Positions 1,243 to 12,779 of a stretch of DNA of 39,342 nucleotides are shown here, one piece after another. The notes under the pieces were generated by a model. That model saw nothing but the letters and a program-made list of their open reading frames with translations. It was not told where the DNA came from and did not search any database. Source of the DNA: an uncultured Atopobiaceae bacterium (GTDB lineage Bacteria; Actinomycetota; Coriobacteriia; Coriobacteriales; Atopobiaceae); the NCBI GenBank assembly GCA_947625235.1, contig CANQNP010000010.1, positions 1-39,342 of the forward strand, written 5' to 3'. A program made the translations under genes and the position numbers. Every line of letters begins with the position of its first letter. The stretch's first letter is position 1.

Positions 1243-1346
1243 GGATGGCGAAGAAATGTGGTTATCACACGGGATCCAATTGCGGCTCCAGCTTTGGCGC
1301 CTGTGGTGATGCATTGTGGAGCCATGATCAGCGGACGCTGAGATAA
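1243..1346 (+). pseudogene. Frameshifted C-terminal fragment of an XRE-like HTH gene
   Basis: Two reading frames together match the end of the HTH gene at 17140-17598. One frame gives RRNVVITRDP, like RRDVVIAWEL in the intact gene. After a shift near 1278 another gives GDALWSHDQRTL, like DDALWSHGLPTL. No N-terminal part is present. This is a relic of an additional member of the same family, more diverged than the copy at 1-75. The remnant's stop codon lies inside the stem of the terminator at 1345. Confidence 0.65.
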
Positions 1347-1373
1347 GGCCCGGGATCTAAGACCCCGGGCCTT
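1345..1373. terminator. Bidirectional GC-rich terminator hairpin
   Basis: AAGGCCCGGG and CCCGGGCCTT form a perfect 10-bp stem around a 9-base loop. The A/T ends of the arms give short U runs in both directions. It lies 24 bp beyond the end of the minus-strand immunity gene (1398) and after the plus-strand HTH fragment, so it can end transcription from both sides. Confidence 0.8.
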
Positions 1374-1397: not shown

Positions 1398-1775
1398 CTA
1401 GAGGACGATTTGTTGTGACGCAACTTCTTCAAGACGCTCGTCGACGAAACGCACCGCAATTCCCTCTTCGGGATCAAAACGATACTCGCAAAGGAGATAG
1501 ACGTCGTGATGATCCTTGTCTCGTCCTATGAATAGTTGAGTTGGCAGCACATAATTCAAGATGTCATTCTCGCGAATGAACTTGGCATCGCTTGGGCTTT
1601 CTTGTAAACAATACGTGCGAACATCAGTCTTCGAATTGTTTACCGCGTTCCAAGAATCAAGAATGGAGTGAAGCGCATCCTCTTGGATGGGGAGGACATC
1701 CTCGCCCTCGAATGCATCGAAAACAATTTCGAGTTTCAGCTCACGGCCCCAAAGTGGTTTTTCAACAAAGCTCAT
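1398..1775 (-). CDS. DUF6985-like immunity protein for the adjacent nuclease
   Basis: This 125-residue cytosolic protein has no signal peptide or membrane segment. It has an N-terminal strand pattern FVEKPLWGRELKLEI, and the C-terminal EYRFDPEEGIAVRF followed by QQIVL resembles the end of DUF6985 proteins, which often accompany polymorphic toxins. Assignment is from recognition, not a search. Its ATG overlaps the toxin stop codon as ATGA, with GGAGGA just upstream inside the toxin gene, so translation is coupled. It is the last gene of the minus-strand operon that starts at 8393. Base composition is much lower in GC than the flanks (for example 27 G/C of 60 at 1561-1620), which suggests recent acquisition. 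The likely role is to bind and block the nuclease at 1772-2371. Confidence 0.72.
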   Translation of the reverse strand: MSFVEKPLWGRELKLEIVFDAFEGEDVLPIQEDALHSILDSWNAVNNSKTDVRTYCLQESPSDAKFIRENDILNYVLPTQLFIGRDKDHHDVYLLCEYRFDPEEGIAVRFVDERLEEVASQQIVL

Positions 1776-2371
1776 GATTGTCCTCCAAAGGGATCGTAGC
1801 CGTTAGCGCACTGGGTTTCTTTGATGCCACCACAATGTTTGAAGTACTCATGTATGCATGCTGGTACGAGTTGAACAGTGTGTCGATCCTGGCATTCGTG
1901 GAAGTCGAGATTGTTATCCTTTTTGTATTGTTCTATATCTCTCCACGTCCAATCATCTTTACCACCGTGCTTTTCGCGATTCCAGACTTCTGCCATCGCC
2001 TTATAGCCGGGAATCCTGTTTTTCCATCCCTTTTCTGACATAGTGTCTATTTGGGCGGTGCACACAGACACCTTGCTGAAGTCGGGGTATGCGTCTTTGT
2101 AAGGTATGCTGTCAACGCCATATCGCGAAAGCGCATCGGCCACTTCCTTACCCCTGTCGGTCGTCACATCTGGGCGACAAGGCGATTCAACCTCTGGGCC
2201 CACCCAAATGCCAGGCGTTTTAATCGCTTGGAGATATCTCTCTACGTAGGGAGTCGCAAAGCGATCCTTCACTTCGCTTGGGTCGAATCCAAGTACCTCT
2301 TTCGAGAACTTGGAGGCGAAGTCACCGATCTTGTTCTTGACGTCGTTGAAGCCACTCTTGTGCAGATCCAT
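1772..2371 (-). CDS. HNH/EndoVII-type nuclease toxin
   Basis: This 199-residue protein has a C-terminal nuclease signature. DFHECQDRHTVQLVP (from about residue 156) is followed by IHEYFKHCGG, giving H158, D162, H174 and H179 in the spacing seen in HNH/EndoVII-fold toxin domains (LHH/GHH/WHH-like). The N-terminal ~95 residues match nothing I recognise and contain no signal peptide, LXG, WXG or RHS repeat. I chose the ATG one base after the upstream ATPase stop because AGGAGGA lies 10 bases before it. A longer start at 2419 would add 16 residues and overlap the ATPase gene by 47 bases. It is followed directly by a coupled immunity gene. It probably cuts DNA or RNA in target cells or in the host under attack; the target is unknown. 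Confidence 0.8.
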   Translation of the reverse strand: MDLHKSGFNDVKNKIGDFASKFSKEVLGFDPSEVKDRFATPYVERYLQAIKTPGIWVGPEVESPCRPDVTTDRGKEVADALSRYGVDSIPYKDAYPDFSKVSVCTAQIDTMSEKGWKNRIPGYKAMAEVWNREKHGGKDDWTWRDIEQYKKDNNLDFHECQDRHTVQLVPACIHEYFKHCGGIKETQCANGYDPFGGQS

Positions 2372-2372
2372 G

Positions 2373-5300
2373 CTAGGCAAGTCCTCCTCGCTCTCTCCAA
2401 TCCTTGAAGACTTCGACATCTTGCAGATCCATGCAGAGGTATTCGGTGATGATGGATTGGATGATCACCCGCTCCACTCGATCGATGAGTTCGGTGGCGA
2501 ACATTGAACGAAGTTCTTCCTTCGCCGAGTCCGTCATATCTCTCGTTTCGGATTTGTGCGCGTGGGCCCAAACTACTTGCTCGCGTACATTCGGGAAGAG
2601 GCCCCGCATCAAAGGACCGGTCTCGAATAGGTTGAGTTTCGGGTGCTTCCGAGATACGTACGAAAGCAACTGCGCCCTCAGCGACGCGTTGAGGTTGAGC
2701 TCGCGCATGGCAAGCCCGAGTTCCCTCAGCTCCGTCTCCTCGGCTTTCTGGTTCAATGCGATGAGGTCGGCGATGCGCAATCTCGTCTCATTCATGCGCG
2801 CGAGCTGCCCATCATCGAGATCTTGCACCTTTGGCTTTTCGTAGCGATAGGGAACCTCCGGGAGGTCGGCATGATCAATCTTGCAAAGCACCGCCTCGAT
2901 CCAATTGTTCTGATAGACCGCGGCGACGCCCCGCGGCAGTTTGGCGAGCTCTCGGATCTGGTCATCGTTGAGGCTCGCTGCATAGCCCACGAGCTTCCGG
3001 TCTTCGAAATCGGGAAGTCGCATGATGATCTTCGTATTCGTGTTTCGGATGACCGACAGGTCCAAGAGGCCTGGCGCCTGGTCGGCGATGATGAAGCCCT
3101 CGCCGTAGGTGCGCATCTCGGCAATGGCGTTTGAGAGCATCTCCACGCTTTTGCCGATGAGGTTGCCGCCGTCAACGGGCTGCTCCGTCGAGGTGCGCTT
3201 GAGGAGGTTGTGGGCCTCTTCCAGAACCGTCAGATGGCGCAATGGAAGATTCGAGCCTTCGCTCGTGGCCATGCGATGCTCTTGGAGCTTCAGGACCATG
3301 AGACCCATGAGGAGCGACTTCGTCTCGCTCGAGCCGACGCGACTCAAATCCACGATGACGTTGTGGTCGAAGAGCTCCTCTTCGCTGAGCTCGTCCTCGG
3401 TGAACACCAGCTTGTTGATGCCATTGCTCAGCGATGCGACGCGCGTGATGAGCGATCCCTTGTAGGCACCCTTGTTCTCTTCATCGTATTCGCTGGATTC
3501 GATGATGGTCCGTATGTTGCGCTCAACATCGCGGAAGTTCGGATAGAGGTCTCTTCCGAAGGGATTCGCGGAAGTGGTGAGATTCCAGCCGCAATCCTCG
3601 TATGACTTCTGGATCGCATCCTTGAGGACGGCGGGCATGGCCGCATACATGGGCCAGCAAACGTTGAAGATCTCGACGAGGCGATCGAGATGTTCGAGGA
3701 TGTGGATGCCAGCGGGGAAGCTGAAGGGATTGACGCGGAGTAACGGCGTGAGATCGGGATTCGTGCCATAGACGCTCACATCGGGATCACTCCCGAAGAG
3801 ATCCTTGTACTCGCCCTTGGCGGGCTCGACGACAAGGAACTTTATGCCCTTGCTTCGTGCCCTCTCGAGTATGAGCGCGGTCGTATTGGTCTTGCCTGCG
3901 CCCGTGCTGCCCGTGATGAAGGTGTGGGACGCAAGTGATGGGAGCGAGAGGTCGACCGAGGTCGGCTCCACGTGGTGCATGTGATAGATGTTTCCGAGCG
4001 AGATGGTCTCGTATCGCGTCAAGTCGTCGTCGAGGACGGACACGTTTCGAGCGAATTCGGCGCATTCGAACACGGGCAAGCCAGCCACTGATTTCTTCGG
4101 GAAGTTCAATGAGTAGGCGAGCTCCTTGCCAGAAAGGCTCGTGGTTGCGGATACGATCTGAGGATAGACGTAATACGAAGAATCCCCCTGAACCACCGAT
4201 GGATTGAGACCAAACAAGGGATGTCTCAGATCGCGCAAGTAAGAGCAGATGTGCTGGGCGACCTCAGCTTCCTCTCCCACATTCCCTCGCCAGAGATTGA
4301 TCGCCGATTCCGAGAGGAAAGATTCTTCGCCTTGGGTGAGCGCAAGATAGCTATGGGCCACGTTATTCGCCACATTCGAATCCTCGCTCACCACATAAGC
4401 GGCGAAGTCCCACATGCCTAAAGCCAAGCTTGTGTCGATGCGCTTCATTTGCTCTTCGAGCTGCTCGAGAGCGTGCTTCACCGTGTAGTTCTTGAAGGAC
4501 TGATTGAATTGCTCGCCCTTGCCAACCGTGGTCATGACGCTCGAAGAACGGGCGAAGTTGAGGCCGAAGTTTGCCCCCATACTCTGGGAGCTTGAAACGC
4601 TTGACGTGGTGGTGAGCGTGCGGCTCAACGCTCTTGAGAGGGTCTTTCCGAGGGTTTTGCTGAGCGTGTTTGAGATCGTGGCGGTCTGGCTCGTGGTCGT
4701 GGACGTGCCACTCCCCGTTGAATGTGATCCGCCAGCGTTGCCGCCGAGAGAAAACGGAAGAAGATCGCTTGTTCCGAACGAAACGCCCCCATACGCCGAG
4801 TCATTCTGGGATTTGCTCGTGCCCTCGGAGTGCCCACGGCTATCGCTTCTACCCCAGCTGGTGCTTTCTGATTCGTTCTCAGATGTGCTATCGCTGGTCC
4901 CCGCCGAATCGGAGATCCCGGTGCTCTGACCGACTTGAGAGCCTATGCTCACACCAAGGTTTACCCCGGCAGTTGCCTGGGAGGAGCGGGCGTTGTTCTC
5001 GTTGTAGGTGTAGCTTGTTTGCCACTCTGCCATCGGTGCAAGCGCAGAGTAGATCTCGCCAAGATGGGTTTGCCGCTCGCGGGCATCATCCACAGGGGTA
5101 GCGAGGAGGATGAGCGTGTACTCTTCTTCCGGACGATTGGGTACGACGCCATCAAGCAGCTTGTCGATGGTCTGGCTTACGAACTTCTCCGACTTCTCGG
5201 TGGGAAGGTTCGAGACCGCCGCGACGGAGTAGGGCGTCCAGCGATCCACGCAGGGTATGCGGCCTTCGCCGATTTCCCTCTCCCATTCGGAGCCGGGGAA

Positions 5301-5822
5301 ATTGCCACGAAGGGCTTCAAGGAGCCGCTGCATGTAGTTGTTCACATCGACGTTGTCGCTGGAGTTCTCCACGTCGGTGACGGCGAGATAGACATCCGTC
5401 GCAACCATCGACCGATGGAATACCAATGCGATGTTGCACTGCGCATCCGAAAGTACCTCGTAGACATTGACGAGCTTATCGAGCGCGTTTTCGTCTTTGG
5501 TCGAGACCCATCTCGTGAGGTGGATGAACCGGACGTTGTGGATTCGGTCAAACGATCCATCGTATTCTGCGTCCTCGTCTACCGGTAAATAGAGCTCATG
5601 GATCTGCGGGAGATAGGCGTTGAAGATCTCGACGGCGCTTGCACCCAGATAGCGCGCCGTCGTCTCTATCGCCTCGGGATCGTCCTTCGAGGGCATTTGC
5701 GATAGATATCTGTTCCGATCCTCTGCGACCTCGTCTAGCTGGGATGGGCTGAGCGCAGATGCCGCCGCGATGCCGTTGATGACCGTATCGCTGGCCTTCT
5801 TCAGTGCCTTTCGAATGCCCAC
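2373..5822 (-). CDS. Large HerA-type (DUF87-like) ATPase with Ser-rich insert
   Basis: This is a 1149-residue protein with a GTG start and AGGAAGGG upstream. Residues 1-275 form an alpha/beta N-terminal region. Residues about 278-435 are extremely rich in Ser, Thr and Gly. The HerA/VirB4-like motor follows: Walker A GSTGAGKT (638-645), a VVEPAKGEYK strand-loop (664-673), VIVDLSRVGSSETK (822-835), Walker B with TVLEEAHNLL (865-874), and a sensor region GFIIADQAPGLLD (909-921). The C-terminal ~150 residues are helical. No membrane segment is apparent. HerA-family motors are hexameric and move DNA or protein chains. The gene is second in the operon, 33 bases after the dynamin-like gene and one base before the toxin start, so it is likely functionally tied to both. 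A DNA-processing defence role is the alternative to toxin handling. Confidence 0.85.
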   Translation of the reverse strand: MGIRKALKKASDTVINGIAAASALSPSQLDEVAEDRNRYLSQMPSKDDPEAIETTARYLGASAVEIFNAYLPQIHELYLPVDEDAEYDGSFDRIHNVRFIHLTRWVSTKDENALDKLVNVYEVLSDAQCNIALVFHRSMVATDVYLAVTDVENSSDNVDVNNYMQRLLEALRGNFPGSEWEREIGEGRIPCVDRWTPYSVAAVSNLPTEKSEKFVSQTIDKLLDGVVPNRPEEEYTLILLATPVDDARERQTHLGEIYSALAPMAEWQTSYTYNENNARSSQATAGVNLGVSIGSQVGQSTGISDSAGTSDSTSENESESTSWGRSDSRGHSEGTSKSQNDSAYGGVSFGTSDLLPFSLGGNAGGSHSTGSGTSTTTSQTATISNTLSKTLGKTLSRALSRTLTTTSSVSSSQSMGANFGLNFARSSSVMTTVGKGEQFNQSFKNYTVKHALEQLEEQMKRIDTSLALGMWDFAAYVVSEDSNVANNVAHSYLALTQGEESFLSESAINLWRGNVGEEAEVAQHICSYLRDLRHPLFGLNPSVVQGDSSYYVYPQIVSATTSLSGKELAYSLNFPKKSVAGLPVFECAEFARNVSVLDDDLTRYETISLGNIYHMHHVEPTSVDLSLPSLASHTFITGSTGAGKTNTTALILERARSKGIKFLVVEPAKGEYKDLFGSDPDVSVYGTNPDLTPLLRVNPFSFPAGIHILEHLDRLVEIFNVCWPMYAAMPAVLKDAIQKSYEDCGWNLTTSANPFGRDLYPNFRDVERNIRTIIESSEYDEENKGAYKGSLITRVASLSNGINKLVFTEDELSEEELFDHNVIVDLSRVGSSETKSLLMGLMVLKLQEHRMATSEGSNLPLRHLTVLEEAHNLLKRTSTEQPVDGGNLIGKSVEMLSNAIAEMRTYGEGFIIADQAPGLLDLSVIRNTNTKIIMRLPDFEDRKLVGYAASLNDDQIRELAKLPRGVAAVYQNNWIEAVLCKIDHADLPEVPYRYEKPKVQDLDDGQLARMNETRLRIADLIALNQKAEETELRELGLAMRELNLNASLRAQLLSYVSRKHPKLNLFETGPLMRGLFPNVREQVVWAHAHKSETRDMTDSAKEELRSMFATELIDRVERVIIQSIITEYLCMDLQDVEVFKDWRERGGLA

Positions 5823-5855
5823 AGTGAACCCTTCCTCTCCGTGCTCAATGCGGCT

Positions 5856-8393
5856 TTATCGATCAATCCATGCCATCGCGTGCTCGGCATCGCCCAATGC
5901 GGAGTTCAGCTGTTGTTGGTTGTTGGAAATGCGGTGTAGCTGCTTGTTGATCGCGTTTGCCGATGAAAGATCGGCACGTATGTCCTGGTTGAGGGATCGC
6001 AAGTGCTCCATGAACCAGTCCATGACGCTCAAGAGCCATCTCGAGAATGCTTCGCCGTGAAGGCGCCTCGTTTCGGAAATCGCGTGCTTTATGGTCCAGT
6101 GCATTTGACGATCGAAGGTTTCATCGAGCTTTTCCAGGTCGAGATCTTCGGAGGTCGGCATGTTGAAGGCGCCGATATGGATCCCGCTGATAAACCTCTC
6201 TTTATGTCCCAGATCATGCACTTCGGGTTCGTAAGGCTCGTTGGCAAGCAGGATGCGCGGAAGCTGATCCCAATCGTTTTGCATGGCATCCTTGCTGCCC
6301 TTGGCAACTTGCGCGAGTTTTTCGATCGCCTCCGTCGCCTTGGCCTTCCAGTATATTTTGGAGACATCCTCCACATGTCGATAGGCCCTCTTCGCCTTCT
6401 CGAGATACTGGAAGACGATCTGGTCGTAGAGCAAGGACGCAACTTCCGCGCGAATGTTCTCTTGGAGTTTGTCGACCTTCCCCTTCTCCTGCATTACGCC
6501 AGCAATGTCATTGATGAACTTAGGGACGGCAGAGAATGCGTTGCCGGCATTGTGCTCTTGGGTCGGAGCGGAATCTTGATTGCGAGAGCCTTGCATCACG
6601 GCGCGAAGCCTCTCGTCAAAGGCGTGCTTCTGTTCGTCCAATCCATATCGATCTGCCACTTCGTGGAGGACGGTGGCCTCCGCTTCGTAGAAGTCCTCTA
6701 CCGCGTTTTCCCATTCATCGGCATCAACGGCCTCGTCCATGTACTTTGAATAGCCCGACTTTGCCTCTTCCCAACAGTGCTTTTCAGTGCAGCTGATCTC
6801 GGATCGAACGGCTTCCTCATGCTCCTCAAGAGTCTTGAGCGCGTCATTCAAATCGGCTTCGAGCGACGAGCGGCGGGCTTTGCTTGTCTTGTCGTTCTCC
6901 TCAACGATGATCGAGAGCCCCCTGTAAATCCGAGAGCAGATGTCGTAGGGGGCATAGTGCTCTACGTAACGTTCGACTTCGCGGTGGATCGTATCCATGC
7001 CGCAATCAACCAGTTCGCTTTCCTGGTCAATGTTTGCGAATTCGACATCCCTCGCCTTGATTTGATCCGGTTGTATGTCGAAGCGGTAGAGTTTCGGAAT
7101 GCCTACGTTTGGAGTCTGAGTTACGGATCCAGTGGTTCGCTCTCCGCCCATTGCCCTCAGCGCACGGGAAGCCGAAACGAAGAACACTCCCTGCCCATCG
7201 AGCAGTTTCGGGAAAGGCCTGCCCAGAACGCTTGTCTCGAAACGCATGGAGAAGGAATTCGGAAGGTCTTGCGCTTGCGGCTCGTTGACGATGATCATGG
7301 CGAACCGTTTGTCGATGTTCGTCGAATCGGAGACTTCCTTGCAGAGCTCCATCGTGCGATCCGACGCCATGTCGTCCATGTCGCACACGAAGATCGGCAG
7401 CATGGCGCTCGGTCGCCGCAGAGGCGCAAGAGCATCTCGGCTGTCTTGCCTGGGCAATTCAACGAGGTCGTCGGGCACGTAGAGCATTTCCGCATCAAGG
7501 TTCGAATCCGACGCATCCGGATTATCGAGCGGGATGTCACATTCGACAACCACGTATCCGCCGGCTTCATCGAAAGCGCTCTCAAGTATTGATGCTAGCT
7601 GGGCCAGTAGCCGTCGAGCGACAGATCGCGTGTCGCCTTCTTCGGCATATCGATCCATGCTGAGGAGCCACGACTCTAATTCGGAGATCCAGCCGCAATC
7701 ATCCGCGGGTGATTTGACGAATAGAGCCGAGTCTTCGACCAAGCCCGATTCGTCGAAATCGAAAGAAAACGAGGCGTCCTGATGTGATACGCGCATGCGC
7801 CCCAACTGCGCATCGTGTGTTCTGCGAATGCGAATATACGTTTTGGAGAGCAACGGAGGAGAGTCCGGGATCAAGTCGCAGCCGATGAGGGCGTTGGCGA
7901 ACGCCGCTTTTCCGACGTCCGCATGTCCAAGTACGCAGAGCGTCGTGGTAGAGGAAAGGCGGATTTGATCGAGCAGGCCCTCAGCCCAGTCATCACCCTC
8001 CGACTCCATCGAATCGAGACGTGCCGTGGCCGCATCCATATTTCGGACAAGTTGGGAAAGAACTTCCTGGGCTTCGGGAAGGCGACGAGGCGATCTTTCC
8101 AAGGTGATGCGATCGTGGTAATCGCGCTCGCGTAGAGACTCGAGTTCTTCGAAGTCGCTATCAGTTCCCTCGAAAACGATCCGCGGCATTTCAGTGGCGC
8201 TACCGAATTCGTCGACGATGATATCGAGGATCGTCTTCGCCTTGAAGGCGAGGACCCCTTGCTTGATGGCTGTCTCAAGGAGGCGAACCTTTGGGTGGTT
8301 GCCGGGCCCGATCTCCATCCAACTACCGTGTTCAAGCGTGTAGAAGGAATTGCTCTTCAGATAGGGGTTGCTCACGATCTTGATGGTTGCCAT
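5856..8393 (-). CDS. Dynamin-like GTPase homologue with altered P-loop
   Basis: This is an 845-residue protein. Residues 1-105 form a distinct N-terminal domain beginning ATIKIVSNPYLK. A dynamin-type G domain follows: CVLGHADVGKAAFANALIG (153-171) and DLIP, then a beta strand MLPIFVCDMDD (331-341), MIIVNEP near the expected G4 strand, and FFVSASRALRAM as a G5-like segment. The P-loop reads GK-A rather than GK-S/T. The rest (about 460-845) is long helices with predicted coiled coils, as in bacterial dynamins, without a clear membrane paddle. The start has GGAGGGG upstream and opens the four-gene operon with the ATPase, toxin and immunity genes. Dynamins remodel membranes, and some act in phage defence. 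Its role here is inferred from context only. Confidence 0.75.
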   Translation of the reverse strand: MATIKIVSNPYLKSNSFYTLEHGSWMEIGPGNHPKVRLLETAIKQGVLAFKAKTILDIIVDEFGSATEMPRIVFEGTDSDFEELESLRERDYHDRITLERSPRRLPEAQEVLSQLVRNMDAATARLDSMESEGDDWAEGLLDQIRLSSTTTLCVLGHADVGKAAFANALIGCDLIPDSPPLLSKTYIRIRRTHDAQLGRMRVSHQDASFSFDFDESGLVEDSALFVKSPADDCGWISELESWLLSMDRYAEEGDTRSVARRLLAQLASILESAFDEAGGYVVVECDIPLDNPDASDSNLDAEMLYVPDDLVELPRQDSRDALAPLRRPSAMLPIFVCDMDDMASDRTMELCKEVSDSTNIDKRFAMIIVNEPQAQDLPNSFSMRFETSVLGRPFPKLLDGQGVFFVSASRALRAMGGERTTGSVTQTPNVGIPKLYRFDIQPDQIKARDVEFANIDQESELVDCGMDTIHREVERYVEHYAPYDICSRIYRGLSIIVEENDKTSKARRSSLEADLNDALKTLEEHEEAVRSEISCTEKHCWEEAKSGYSKYMDEAVDADEWENAVEDFYEAEATVLHEVADRYGLDEQKHAFDERLRAVMQGSRNQDSAPTQEHNAGNAFSAVPKFINDIAGVMQEKGKVDKLQENIRAEVASLLYDQIVFQYLEKAKRAYRHVEDVSKIYWKAKATEAIEKLAQVAKGSKDAMQNDWDQLPRILLANEPYEPEVHDLGHKERFISGIHIGAFNMPTSEDLDLEKLDETFDRQMHWTIKHAISETRRLHGEAFSRWLLSVMDWFMEHLRSLNQDIRADLSSANAINKQLHRISNNQQQLNSALGDAEHAMAWIDR

Positions 8394-10222: not shown

Positions 10223-11245
10223 ATGAAGAAGGCAATCGCCAAGAGCGCCGTGGCTCTCGCCACGTTCGTCCTGCTCTCCGGATGCCAGGCAACCACGAGC
10301 ACGGGCGTCGTGTTTCCAAATGCGAGCACGTCCTACGAGAACCTGCCCTTGGAAACCCTCCAGGCAGAGTTCGAGGGCATGGGGTTCACCAACGTGAAGA
10401 CGAGCGAGACCGCGAACAAGCTCGGCATGAGCCACGACGGTGAGGTCATCGGCTTCGACATCGATGGGTCGAGCGAGTTCGATGAGGGCGCCGAGTTCAG
10501 CCCGGACGCCGCGCTCACCATCGAGTGCTACGGACCCTACGTGACGCCCGTGACGATCAGCCAGTCGAGCGATATCCACAAGCAGTACATCAAAAACTAT
10601 CGCGGCATGAACGCGGCCTCGTTTGGCTACACGTCGCTCGGCGGAGACAGGCGCGATTACTACGGCAACGCGACCATCAAGCTCGTCTTCGTCACACCCG
10701 ACGGCGAGGTGGCCGACTTCACCGACGAGGAGGTGCTCAAGGACTATATCGTCTACGACCAGAACATCGAGCCGAACACCGAGATGAACATAGCTTTCGA
10801 AACGGACGACGACGGCGAGGAGTATGAGCACCTCGAAGCGTGGACGGGGTTCGACGAGATCGTCCTCGACATCAAGAAGATCGGCGAGGAGGATGGCGAG
10901 CCCATCGCCATGACCCCCATCAGCCAAGGTGATAAGTACAACCGCTACGTCGGAGACTTCGTGGGGCGCAACCTCGGCAACTTCGGCTACACCTCATGGG
11001 GCGGTGACCGTCGCTTCTACGTGGGCGGAGGGAACATCAAGCTCAACATCATCACCGAAGATGGCAGCTTCGTGGATCCCGAGGATTACGACTCGCTCAA
11101 CAACTACGTCGTCACCTCCCAAAGCGTCGCGCCCAACACGCCCGTCACGGTCACCTTCGGTACGGATGGTAACGGCAAGGAATACGACAACCTCGGGAGA
11201 GCCAGCATCGACGCCATCGACGTCAACGTGAAGCGAGTCGGGTAG
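10223..11245 (+). CDS. Lipoprotein with PASTA-like N-terminus and two tandem domains
   Basis: This is a 340-residue lipoprotein. The signal peptide ends LLSGC with C21 as the lipid anchor. Residues about 40-110 contain LETLQAEFEGMGFTNVKT and resemble the PASTA-like domain of the preceding LRR protein. Residues 120-340 hold two ~105-residue domains homologous to those of the lipoprotein at 260, with FGYTSLGGDRRD and the second domain opening DKYNRYVGDFVGRN. AAGGGAAAGG precedes the ATG. It converges with the kinase-like gene, leaving only 10 bases between the stop codons and no terminator hairpin. It is likely an outer-face partner of the LRR protein or of the kinase ectodomain. The two lipoproteins probably arose by duplication. 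The function of the repeated domain is unknown. Confidence 0.88.
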   Translation: MKKAIAKSAVALATFVLLSGCQATTSTGVVFPNASTSYENLPLETLQAEFEGMGFTNVKTSETANKLGMSHDGEVIGFDIDGSSEFDEGAEFSPDAALTIECYGPYVTPVTISQSSDIHKQYIKNYRGMNAASFGYTSLGGDRRDYYGNATIKLVFVTPDGEVADFTDEEVLKDYIVYDQNIEPNTEMNIAFETDDDGEEYEHLEAWTGFDEIVLDIKKIGEEDGEPIAMTPISQGDKYNRYVGDFVGRNLGNFGYTSWGGDRRFYVGGGNIKLNIITEDGSFVDPEDYDSLNNYVVTSQSVAPNTPVTVTFGTDGNGKEYDNLGRASIDAIDVNVKRVG

Positions 11246-11255
11246 GGAGGGCCAC

Positions 11256-12779
11256 TTACAGCTCGACCGTCTCGCTCAAAAGCGGGCCGTCGCCGTAGTA
11301 CTCCCAGGCGAGGAGCTCGACTTCGACGGGGCTCGTCACGTTGTCGAGGCGGATGAGCTCGTAAACGGTCGTGTGGGCGTTCGGACGAAGGTACGTGGAA
11401 CTGCTGCCGAGGTCATAGTCCGGGCTACCGGTGGGCTTGAGTTCCACACCATCCTGGAAAGCGCGAACCCAATACTGACCCGAGAAACTCGTCGTCTCGC
11501 TCGTCTTGTTCGTGTACTCGAGGGTCACGAGCAGTGCCGGCTCGTCTTGGTAGTCCTTGACCACCTCGAACGAGGCGAACGATGCCGTTGGCTTGGGGAG
11601 CGAGGCTTCCGTTCCCTCGGATGGGGCGACCGTTGCAGAACCGTCGTCCGTGGTCGAATCGCCGCCCTGCTCGTTGATCTTCTCGATCCCGGCCTCTCCC
11701 GAATCTTTCAGCCCCTCGAGGATCTGGTCTCCGAGCGAGGCACCGAGCTCGTAGAACGCTCCATACGCGCCGTCTCCGCCCTCCACGCTCTCGGCGTAAT
11801 CGAAGTCGATGTCGTCGAGTATCGAGCTCTCCGATTGCTGCGCAGACATCGCCCCGGGTATCCACACGAAGATGGCAAGGCAGGCGATCACCGCGGCAAG
11901 GCAGATGGCCGCGCCCACGAGCGTGCGCTTCACGCGTCTTGCGTGCTCGGGCGTTGATTGCTCGAGCGCGTTGCGCACATCGTCGGCGAATTCAGAGGCC
12001 GTGCGTTGCCGCTTGCTCGGCTCGAACGCCGTGGCATGGTGGATTACCTCGGCAAATGGGGGAGGAACCACGTTCGAATCGTCCAGCAACTCGTCATAGC
12101 GCGCATCGTCGGGATACGCTCCCGTGAGCATGAATCCGAGCAGCTTGCCGAGCGCGTAGATGTCGCTTCTGCGGTCCGTGGCCGCAAATCCGAATTGCTC
12201 GGGCGCGGCGAAGCCCCACGTGCCAAGCACGTGGGTGTCGTGGCGCTTCTGCTCCTTTGAAGCCGAGGTGTCTCCGGTGATGCGGGCAATGCCAAGTTTG
12301 ACGAGCACCGCGCCATCGGGCGAGAGCATCACGTTTCCCGGAGTGATGTCGCGGTGCACCACGCCCACCTCATGCAGGGCCTGCGCAGCTTCGGCCACCT
12401 CGCCGCACACTCGCGCGGCATGCTCAAACGTAAGCGCGCCCTCGCGATTCACCAGGTCTTCGAGGCTCTCACCCTCCACGAAGCTCGTCACCGCAACGAC
12501 ATCGCCGGATGCTTCGCGGAGATCCACGAGCGTGGGGAGGTGCGGGGACTTTGCGCGAGCGAGCCGCGACCAAGCCTCGTAGCTCACGAGGTTCGCCGGC
12601 ATGACCTTCCTGAGGTAGGGCCCCTCGTTGCCCTTCCACACGACCTCGGTGAGCTCGCCTTGGCGAGAGGAGATCACCCGCTCGACGCGATAGGGCCCCT
12701 CCGGACCCCCTTTGCTCGCCGAGGCGCGCTCCGATCCGTGGATGAGTCGTGCGAAGATGTCGCGCTTGCGTGGAGGCAT
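11256..12779 (-). CDS. Ser/Thr kinase-like membrane protein lacking DFG, with DUF5067 ectodomain
   Basis: This is a 507-residue protein. The kinase fold spans about 28-275: YLRK58 as the likely beta3 lysine, catalytic loop VHRDITPGNVML (141-152) with D144 and N149, GTWGFAAPEQFG as the activation/APE segment, and SDIYALGKLL. The glycine-rich loop is absent (VISSRQGELTEVV). The metal-binding DFG is also missing: the sequence reads VLVKLGIARI where families have VKLIDFGIARI, which fits an in-frame loss of three codons. A membrane helix follows (about 286-308), then an acidic linker and an extracellular DUF5067-like domain (400-500: VTLEYTNKTSETTSF, AFQDGVELKP). It lies 6 bases after the XRE-like gene in one operon. 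It is probably a pseudokinase or very weak kinase that relays an external signal. A decayed copy lies at 17848-18500. Confidence 0.85.
   Translation of the reverse strand: MPPRKRDIFARLIHGSERASASKGGPEGPYRVERVISSRQGELTEVVWKGNEGPYLRKVMPANLVSYEAWSRLARAKSPHLPTLVDLREASGDVVAVTSFVEGESLEDLVNREGALTFEHAARVCGEVAEAAQALHEVGVVHRDITPGNVMLSPDGAVLVKLGIARITGDTSASKEQKRHDTHVLGTWGFAAPEQFGFAATDRRSDIYALGKLLGFMLTGAYPDDARYDELLDDSNVVPPPFAEVIHHATAFEPSKRQRTASEFADDVRNALEQSTPEHARRVKRTLVGAAICLAAVIACLAIFVWIPGAMSAQQSESSILDDIDFDYAESVEGGDGAYGAFYELGASLGDQILEGLKDSGEAGIEKINEQGGDSTTDDGSATVAPSEGTEASLPKPTASFASFEVVKDYQDEPALLVTLEYTNKTSETTSFSGQYWVRAFQDGVELKPTGSPDYDLGSSSTYLRPNAHTTVYELIRLDNVTSPVEVELLAWEYYGDGPLLSETVEL

Follow-up and report, generated by a model that had tools for sequence, protein, structure and literature searches.

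A polymorphic-toxin operon with a dynamin and HerA/VirB4-type core in an uncultured Atopobiaceae bacterium, and the co-variation of its motor tail with the toxin N-terminus

In the type VIIb secretion system (T7SSb), the motor EssC carries a variable C-terminus that selects the cargo encoded directly downstream, usually together with immunity genes, as two accounts describe (PMC10327511, PMC9436818). A comparable arrangement is the subject of this study: a four-gene operon of an uncultured Atopobiaceae bacterium, located on contig CANQNP010000010.1, the whole of which (39,342 bases) was analyzed and is called here the window; the source genome, of 1.73 Mb, is incomplete. The operon encodes a dynamin-like protein, an ATPase, a nuclease toxin and a probable immunity protein, and comparison with its relatives indicates that the C-terminal tail of the ATPase tracks a short N-terminal address of the toxin and not its catalytic domain.

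The likeness to T7SSb and EssC lies in a motor of the FtsK/HerA superfamily with a variable C-terminus that matches the downstream toxins, a match that is seen here as co-variation in sequence. The differences are that the ATPase of the window has a single motor domain, lacks a membrane segment as judged by hydropathy and is partnered by a dynamin. Membership of the T7SS was rejected: among the 12 genomes searched (7/12 at least 90% complete), YukC was found in 0/12 and WXG100 above the cut-off in 1/12 (2/12 at E 0.001), while the control, Bacillus subtilis, was positive for both markers. VirB4 of type IV secretion (T4SS) is the highest-scoring solved fold for the motor domain (Z 32.6), and no T4SS component was noticed on reading the recurrent neighbor clusters, a reading made without a VirB family search. 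The HerA anti-phage complexes (SIR2-HerA and DUF4297-HerA) share with this locus the motor fold and an effector enzyme encoded beside the motor, but here the effectors are polymorphic toxins that have a swappable address and go with immunity-type genes, the partner is a dynamin, and the motor bears a Ser-rich insert and a putative C-terminal receptor domain.

Polymorphic toxin systems, as presented in the available part of the 2012 account (PMC3482391), combine a constant trafficking part, a variable toxin tip and a linked immunity gene, and in this they resemble the present locus; the secretory routes given there include no core made of a dynamin and HerA, and the word "dynamin" has 0 occurrences in the first 300,000 characters. 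The GAP1/DO-GTPase systems and other conflict systems dependent on nucleoside triphosphates (Kaur et al., 2020; PMC7159879) are similar in having a constant GTPase-centered core and variable effectors, some of them joined by adaptor domains. The available text of that work reports no sign of primary-effector secretion in most systems and has 0 occurrences of "dynamin"; a divergent relative of the ATPase (locus L058) lies beside GAP1-M and DO-GTPase2 genes, which are components of those conflict systems. Eleos/LeoABC and the bacterial dynamins share the dynamin fold, and weak LeoA and LeoBC matches were obtained with PADLOC in relatives; the partner genes are different, and the window dynamin gave no LeoA/LeoBC match. 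Among the papers listed for the open-licence literature of PubMed Central, none names the gene set, as judged from titles and beginnings of abstracts, a scope that leaves subscription papers and preprints outside. A polymorphic toxin system is thus a known kind, whereas a dynamin and HerA/VirB4-type motor core with an address receptor is, as far as searched, undescribed in that literature.

Tail of the motor and address of the toxin

The toxins were compared in a set that was trimmed from 83 to 81 loci by dropping L139 and L149, where the contig ends within the ATPase gene. The viral-contig loci L150 and L151 are part of this set, which is not the same as the 81 loci used below for gene linkage. 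L070 has no downstream open reading frame (ORF), which leaves 80 loci, and the removal of the near copies L079, L082, L097, L111, L130 and L151 leaves 74. In L120 the second ORF was taken as the cargo. The tail of the ATPase, that is, the last ~165 residues after residue 981, forms clusters of 42 (type A), 38 (type B) and 1 (other) members at E 1e-10, the one of three limits compared (1e-3, 1e-6 and 1e-10) that separates A from B; the locus of the type "other", L143, was omitted from the A/B tests. In the window this tail is a C-terminal helical domain of type A (residues 982-1149, positions 2376..2879, minus strand), and it is the proposed cargo receptor.

Toxins encoded behind A tails have, near their N-terminus, one to three copies of an FDPDKRI-like motif (F-D-P-D-K-R-I), while those behind B tails carry a segment of the form N-F-K-E-I-K-P-E...E-A..F-W, such as NFKEIKPENGMT.EAK.FW. 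A regular expression for the A address matched 23/37 A toxins and 0/36 B toxins, and one for the B address matched 27/36 B toxins and 0/37 A toxins; neither matched in 24/74 loci, the window included. With a leave-one-out matrix of the A motif, a score of at least 10 was reached by 27/37 A toxins, by none of the 36 B toxins and by 8/3,266 other ORFs. The putative A-type address of the window toxin, LGFDPSEV (residues 27-34, positions 2270..2293, minus strand), is a weak form of the family motif and is kept in the sister species.

The type of the tail can be predicted from the toxin with the nearest N-terminus, and the prediction is right in 68/74 cases (shuffles: mean 35.6, maximum 50), while the catalytic C-terminus of the toxin predicts it in 46/74, a value inside the shuffle range. 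When the N-terminal prediction is restricted to toxins with an unlike catalytic part, with cores below 75% identity, it is right in 72/73. This direct similarity limit is preferred because a first clustering of the catalytic parts lumped 62 toxins into one cluster, which makes its cross-catalytic figure (70/74) a weak one. Over all loci, the toxin N-terminus correlates with the tail at 0.76 and the catalytic part at 0.20 (partial Mantel, conditioned on the core).

The C-terminal domain also swaps independently of the ATPase core. On the core tree at least 11 changes of tail type are required, and supported branches force 8 of these; in the independent pairs the predicted address agrees with the tail in 7/8, with 0 contrary (sign test, p 0.016); the strict motifs alone agree in 5/5 pairs (p 0.06). 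In L077, L079 and L080 the cores are 93-95% identical and the tails 29-37%, and the toxins differ; the pair L077/L079, for example, has a core identity of 95% and a C-terminal identity of 37%, with a changed toxin. The reverse situation is seen in L100/L101 (core 95%, C-terminus 93%, toxin N-terminus 73% and catalytic part 20% identical), an example of the conserved trafficking N-terminus and variable toxin C-terminus of polymorphic toxins. Between the window and a 97% identical sister there are 11 base differences in core residues 271-981, and the differences are dense from residue 984 onward.

Further evidence comes from second cargos. A profile of the B address was built from 34 first toxins (L146 and L107 left out) and run on the 4,199 ORFs of the 74 loci; beyond its training toxins it matches only 16 ORFs (E 1e-15 to 0.024), all of them in B loci (16/36), in a test that was devised after the outcome of an earlier one and the recurrent neighbor clusters had been seen. 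That earlier test, made with regular expressions, was too strict and its result was mixed (same strand: B address in B loci 2, A in B 2, B in A 1, A in A 1). The 16 second-cargo ORFs lie on the same strand, 0.9-1.1 kb behind the ATPase, and in the two loci listed fully, L099 and L140, the second cargo is found beyond the toxin and the immunity gene. In addition, there is one distal second cargo of A type, in L147. The second cargo of L099, the sole one scanned against Pfam, matches DUF6782 and M76, each just below the cut-off, and is thus zinc metallopeptidase-like. The presence of the B address in second cargos is the strongest sign that the address would be a cargo label, and the comparisons as a whole support well the proposal that the motor tail recognizes its cargo through this address.

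A separate observation concerns a protein of ~100 residues encoded behind the second cargo (L140:13441-13737 and relatives), which forms a cluster of 16 loci, all of B type. The one such protein scanned has no Pfam match; it may be an immunity partner.

If the motor tail does read the cargo address, it could become possible to predict from a short peptide which cargo a widespread bacterial machine takes, as the EssC variants do in T7SS. The best 80 of at least 530 relatives include cultured species, so that the question is directly testable.

The constant core and its variable toxins

All four genes of the operon are on the minus strand, in the 5' to 3' order dynamin-like protein (845 residues, 5856..8393), ATPase (1149 residues, 2373..5822, with a GTG start), toxin (199 residues, 1772..2371) and probable immunity protein (125 residues, 1398..1775). 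The distances given by the sequence-only reading, 33 bp between the dynamin and ATPase genes, 1 bp between the ATPase and toxin genes, and a 4-base overlap between the toxin and immunity genes, agree with the ORF coordinates. The same reading placed a strong terminator at the end of the operon. There is indeed a strong hairpin 3' of the last gene (1345..1373, minus strand; -28.1 kcal/mol, z -4.4), a possible terminator by its folding energy, but it has only a weak T-tract and is absent from the output of the terminator scan for the window. The gene layout is not a product of chance, because a dynamin ORF lies directly upstream of the ATPase in 78/81 loci and in 71/74 there is a short ORF no more than 60 bp behind the toxin. 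Three window proteins match Pfam families above the curated cut-offs: the ATPase DUF87, the HerA central domain (2.7e-11), the toxin Colicin-DNase (9.2e-8) and the immunity protein DUF6985 (1.3e-8).

The window ATPase is, according to its Pfam and structural matches, a motor of the HerA/VirB4 type, with the Walker A motif GSTGAGKTN and the Walker B motif TVLEEAH. Its model, with a predicted local distance difference test (pLDDT) value of 75.9, comprises an N-terminal domain, a disordered insert rich in Ser, Thr and Gly (residues about 271-440, positions 4503..5012, minus strand; mostly pLDDT <40), whose length varies among relatives, the motor core and, modeled with confidence, an all-helical domain at the C-terminus (1004-1145). 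The top solved fold for the motor core is VirB4 (4ag5; Z 32.6, root-mean-square deviation (rmsd) 3.0 over 346 residues, model residues 592-989), followed by the DndH C-domain and by HerA (4d2i, Z 27.6), while the Foldseek ranking places HerA first. TrwK/VirB4 was also aligned over 580 residues, but with an rmsd of 14.8; the VIA-align structural matches span model residues 108-997. With PADLOC the window ATPase matches HerA and mad8, and no NCBIfam model was above cut-off for it or for three relatives, HerA_antiphage being far below.

The dynamin-like protein of the window has a model with a pLDDT of 81.4, whose best matches in the PDB, SynDLP (6.4e-12) and BDLP (1.2e-10), indicate a dynamin fold with a long helical stalk. 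Its match to Dynamin_N falls below the cut-off (E 0.0036, 17.8 bits versus 27), and it is not among the 48/51 aligned dynamins in which this domain is found at E 0.001. The GTPase motifs G1 and G3 are each present in 48/51 of these proteins and G4, by a strict pattern, in 35/51; all three have been lost from the window copy, which does not support a working GTPase there. Between the window and sister dynamins dN/dS is 0.26 overall (56 changes), 0.13 in the stalk and 0.43 in the G domain, and because overall constraint persists, the window protein may act as a scaffold.

A scan of the genome collection with the ATPase returned at least 530 stretches that encode motor relatives (E 1e-3), not all of which need hold the whole system. 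The linkage was counted in the window and the best 80 relatives (L070-L149), that is, 81 loci, mostly of Actinomycetota and Bacillota, and in 78/81 the dynamin ORF is directly upstream of the ATPase. Two of the three exceptions (L143 and L149) are contig edges, and the third (L148) has in that place two other ORFs with a GTPase-like P-loop, as judged by eye. Many bacteria, those of the gut among them, carry the cassette, and the named hosts among these 80 include Streptococcus sanguinis, Bifidobacterium ruminantium, Ruminococcus flavefaciens, Ruminococcus albus, Collinsella aerofaciens and Carnobacterium maltaromaticum. Within the family to which the window belongs, the ATPase has a match at E 1e-10 in 22/140 genomes, 12 of them with near-full query coverage, and a single-sequence search with the dynamin finds the same 12/140 genomes, with the two genes adjoining; upstream of two of the family's more divergent ATPases, in L056 and L057, there is likewise a Dynamin_N gene. 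Plasmids of Escherichia coli TW10590, Lactococcus cremoris and Treponema saccharophilum hold a variant in which two genes bear the annotation dynamin family and a nuclease toxin follows; the Escherichia coli and Lactococcus plasmids are typed as conjugative. The gene behind the toxin is SMI1/KNR4 in E. coli and Treponema and a hypothetical short gene in Lactococcus, and a near search found this variant in 1/5,426 genomes of the E. coli collection.

The toxin of the window is a nuclease of the colicin-type DNase/WHH kind, whose catalytic Colicin-DNase domain covers residues 91-181 (1829..2101, minus strand) and in which the invariant residues of an alignment of 20 relatives are present, including H158, E159, D162, T165 and H179. 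Its 199-residue form starts at the ATG at 2371; an alternative reading gives 215 residues from 2419, overlapping the ATPase gene. In 51/74 loci, under the start rule applied here, the ATPase gene ends 4 or 1 bases past the toxin start. The families of the first downstream ORF (E 0.01, n=74) are Colicin-DNase (30), the DNA/RNA endonuclease family Endonuclea_NS_2 (17) and LHH (5), with single matches to Ntox15, DUF6782, Peptidase_C39_2, NERD and RelA_SpoT; the last, taken as that of L146, belongs to a first ORF 277 bp away, probably a neighbor and not a cargo, and was kept in the counts. The ORFs that follow (n=71) match DUF6985 (25), YezG-like (16), SMI1/KNR4 (12), PoNi (2) and Tdi1 (1), so that 31/71 belong to immunity or SUKH families, plus the 25/71 of DUF6985. 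The downstream gene of the window toxin, of the DUF6985 family, probably encodes an immunity protein. The constancy of the two large genes beside changing toxin and immunity genes, which the sequence-only reading had proposed to look for in the neighborhoods of homologs, is what the 78/81 linkage and the varied downstream families display, and the four-gene cassette is accordingly best classed, from its gene content, as a polymorphic-toxin system with a constant ATPase and dynamin core.

Among the more divergent ATPases, other layouts were observed. In L154, L155 and L156 (viral_contigs) the ATPase is followed by an acidic Ser-rich protein, a protein of ~525 residues and a DnaK-like Hsp70, with a DnaJ-like ORF beyond (by eye). 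Behind it in L065 and L066 come proteins that are rich in Glu and probably helical, along with a longer one whose N-terminus is similar, an arrangement that recalls LXG/WXG layouts.

Possible roles of the machine

A sequence of events can be proposed in which the motor, presumably a hexamer, would bind the N-terminal address of the toxin through its C-terminal helical domain, acting as a receptor, and would then unfold or thread the toxin, while the dynamin-like scaffold would shape or tether the membrane at the site of the motor. The nuclease would thus be passed out of the producer toward competing cells, and the immunity protein would shield the producer from it. We hold this reading, taken whole, at about even credence. 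Beyond the gene linkage, the swapping of toxins and immunity genes and the co-variation of putative receptor and address, which the comparison of loci establishes, delivery to other cells is a best guess by analogy, because many of the toxin and immunity families belong to interbacterial warfare and because EssC offers a precedent. A wider proposal is held more tentatively, at somewhat under even credence: that this is a new protein-delivery machine of Actinomycetota and Bacillota, with a soluble HerA/VirB4-type motor that has a built-in address receptor, and with a dynamin instead of a membrane channel, which would export interchangeable toxins and metallopeptidase-like proteins into competitors and which has its two-dynamin variant on Escherichia coli, Lactococcus and Treponema plasmids. 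A dynamin and a HerA/VirB4-type motor acting on toxins would link membrane remodeling to protein translocation, a link that was not found in the literature within the scope given above.

Several observations weigh against the export of addressed toxins. Regarding the address, A and B tails merge into one cluster at E 1e-6 and 1e-3, so they are variants of one domain. The window motif LGFDPSEV scores 5.6, below 10, versus a maximum of 4.0 among B toxins, in a comparison that at this lower score covers the B toxins but not the background ORFs. In type A loci the core, too, is tracked by the toxin N-terminus (partial Mantel 0.33), and in type B loci the tail is tracked by the catalytic part as well (0.36). 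The divergence from the sister is a mosaic that takes in the end of the dynamin gene and ATPase residues about 74-143. As for the machine itself, none of the four window proteins has a membrane segment as judged by hydropathy, with no dedicated signal-peptide or membrane predictor run (windows of at least 1.6 occur in 5/255 sequences of the four protein alignments), and no known secretion pathway or secretion partner was identified for the system. The window dynamin is without its G1, G3 and G4 motifs, and the dynamin ORF is split in four distinct loci (L093, L098, L119 and L147), possibly by assembly error. Orphan immunity genes are a common mark of attack by neighbors; for one immunity family, in the window's family, they are nearly absent (2/11 bearing genomes, both with an in-frame stop). 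Finally, the tail and the start of the toxin adjoin in the DNA, so part of their co-variation could be hitch-hiking, and the distal second cargo with the same address is the main argument against this. The earlier suggestion that the motor and the dynamin handle, export or activate the nuclease therefore divides in two: handling by the motor is strengthened by the match of tail and address, while export finds neither a membrane segment by hydropathy nor YukC (0/12) on its side.

The main rival is an intracellular defense, in which the motor would hold the toxin by its address and release or activate it on sensing phage DNA or membrane damage, so that the infected cell is killed or arrested; immunity would silence the toxin in healthy cells, and the dynamin would act as in antiviral dynamins. 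The SIR2-HerA and DUF4297-HerA motors, partly entitled anti-phage complexes, are among the best structural matches, PADLOC gives HerA and mad8 for the ATPase and weak LeoA/LeoBC for the dynamins of relatives, the proteins look soluble, and the system has a patchy distribution (22/140 genomes) and a variant on plasmids. On the other hand, many of the toxin and immunity families are those of type VI secretion (T6SS), T7SS and colicin warfare, the address is also found on a second, unrelated cargo protein, and no partner of the PADLOC HerA systems was matched among the 4 window proteins and 9 proteins of relatives. To our knowledge, the effectors of known HerA defenses come without cognate immunity genes, which also counts against this explanation, and we consider it less likely than export.

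Another way of looking at the co-variation is to attribute it to linkage only, with recombination exchanging the final part of the ATPase gene and the adjoining start of the toxin gene as one piece. The two segments are contiguous in the DNA, and the divergence from the sister extends to both sides of the ATPase stop codon (27/105 bases differ behind it), as this explanation would have it. Nevertheless, the B address is found in 16 second cargos farther downstream, all in B loci, with the distal A-type one of L147, and the catalytic part, which comes next along the DNA, tracks the tail far less overall than the N-terminus does (0.20 versus 0.76), all of which makes linkage alone quite improbable. 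Equally doubtful is a role in addiction or stabilization, in which the toxin and immunity protein would retain the element in its host in the manner of a toxin-antitoxin pair, with the motor and dynamin serving the element: there are variants on plasmids typed as conjugative (Escherichia coli, Lactococcus) and on a Treponema plasmid, and the two small genes overlap or nearly touch, but such a pair has no need of a 1,100-residue motor, and the motor tail matches the toxin address.

Genes around the operon

Some features of the surroundings were recorded on their own account. Just downstream of the operon, a coding tail at about 1240-1346 resembles the gene end at 1-75 and seems to be a degenerate copy of it; the two similar tails, compared by eye, end in DALWSHGLPTLA and DALWSHDQRTLR. 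Two surface-type proteins that resemble each other by eye (179-1162 and 10223-11245) flank the operon region, and L047 encodes, close to its operon, a relative of the former with 47% identity. In 9 loci, for example L104, the neighborhood includes a recurrent cluster of ORFs that resemble an ABC transporter on reading; it lies on both sides and on both strands and was therefore not counted as a partner. The third gene upstream of the dynamin, at 11256-12779, encodes a Ser/Thr kinase with DUF5067, and kinase-like ORFs, identified by reading, form two recurrent clusters in the vicinity of the operon, in 9 and 8 loci, counts taken without a background rate.

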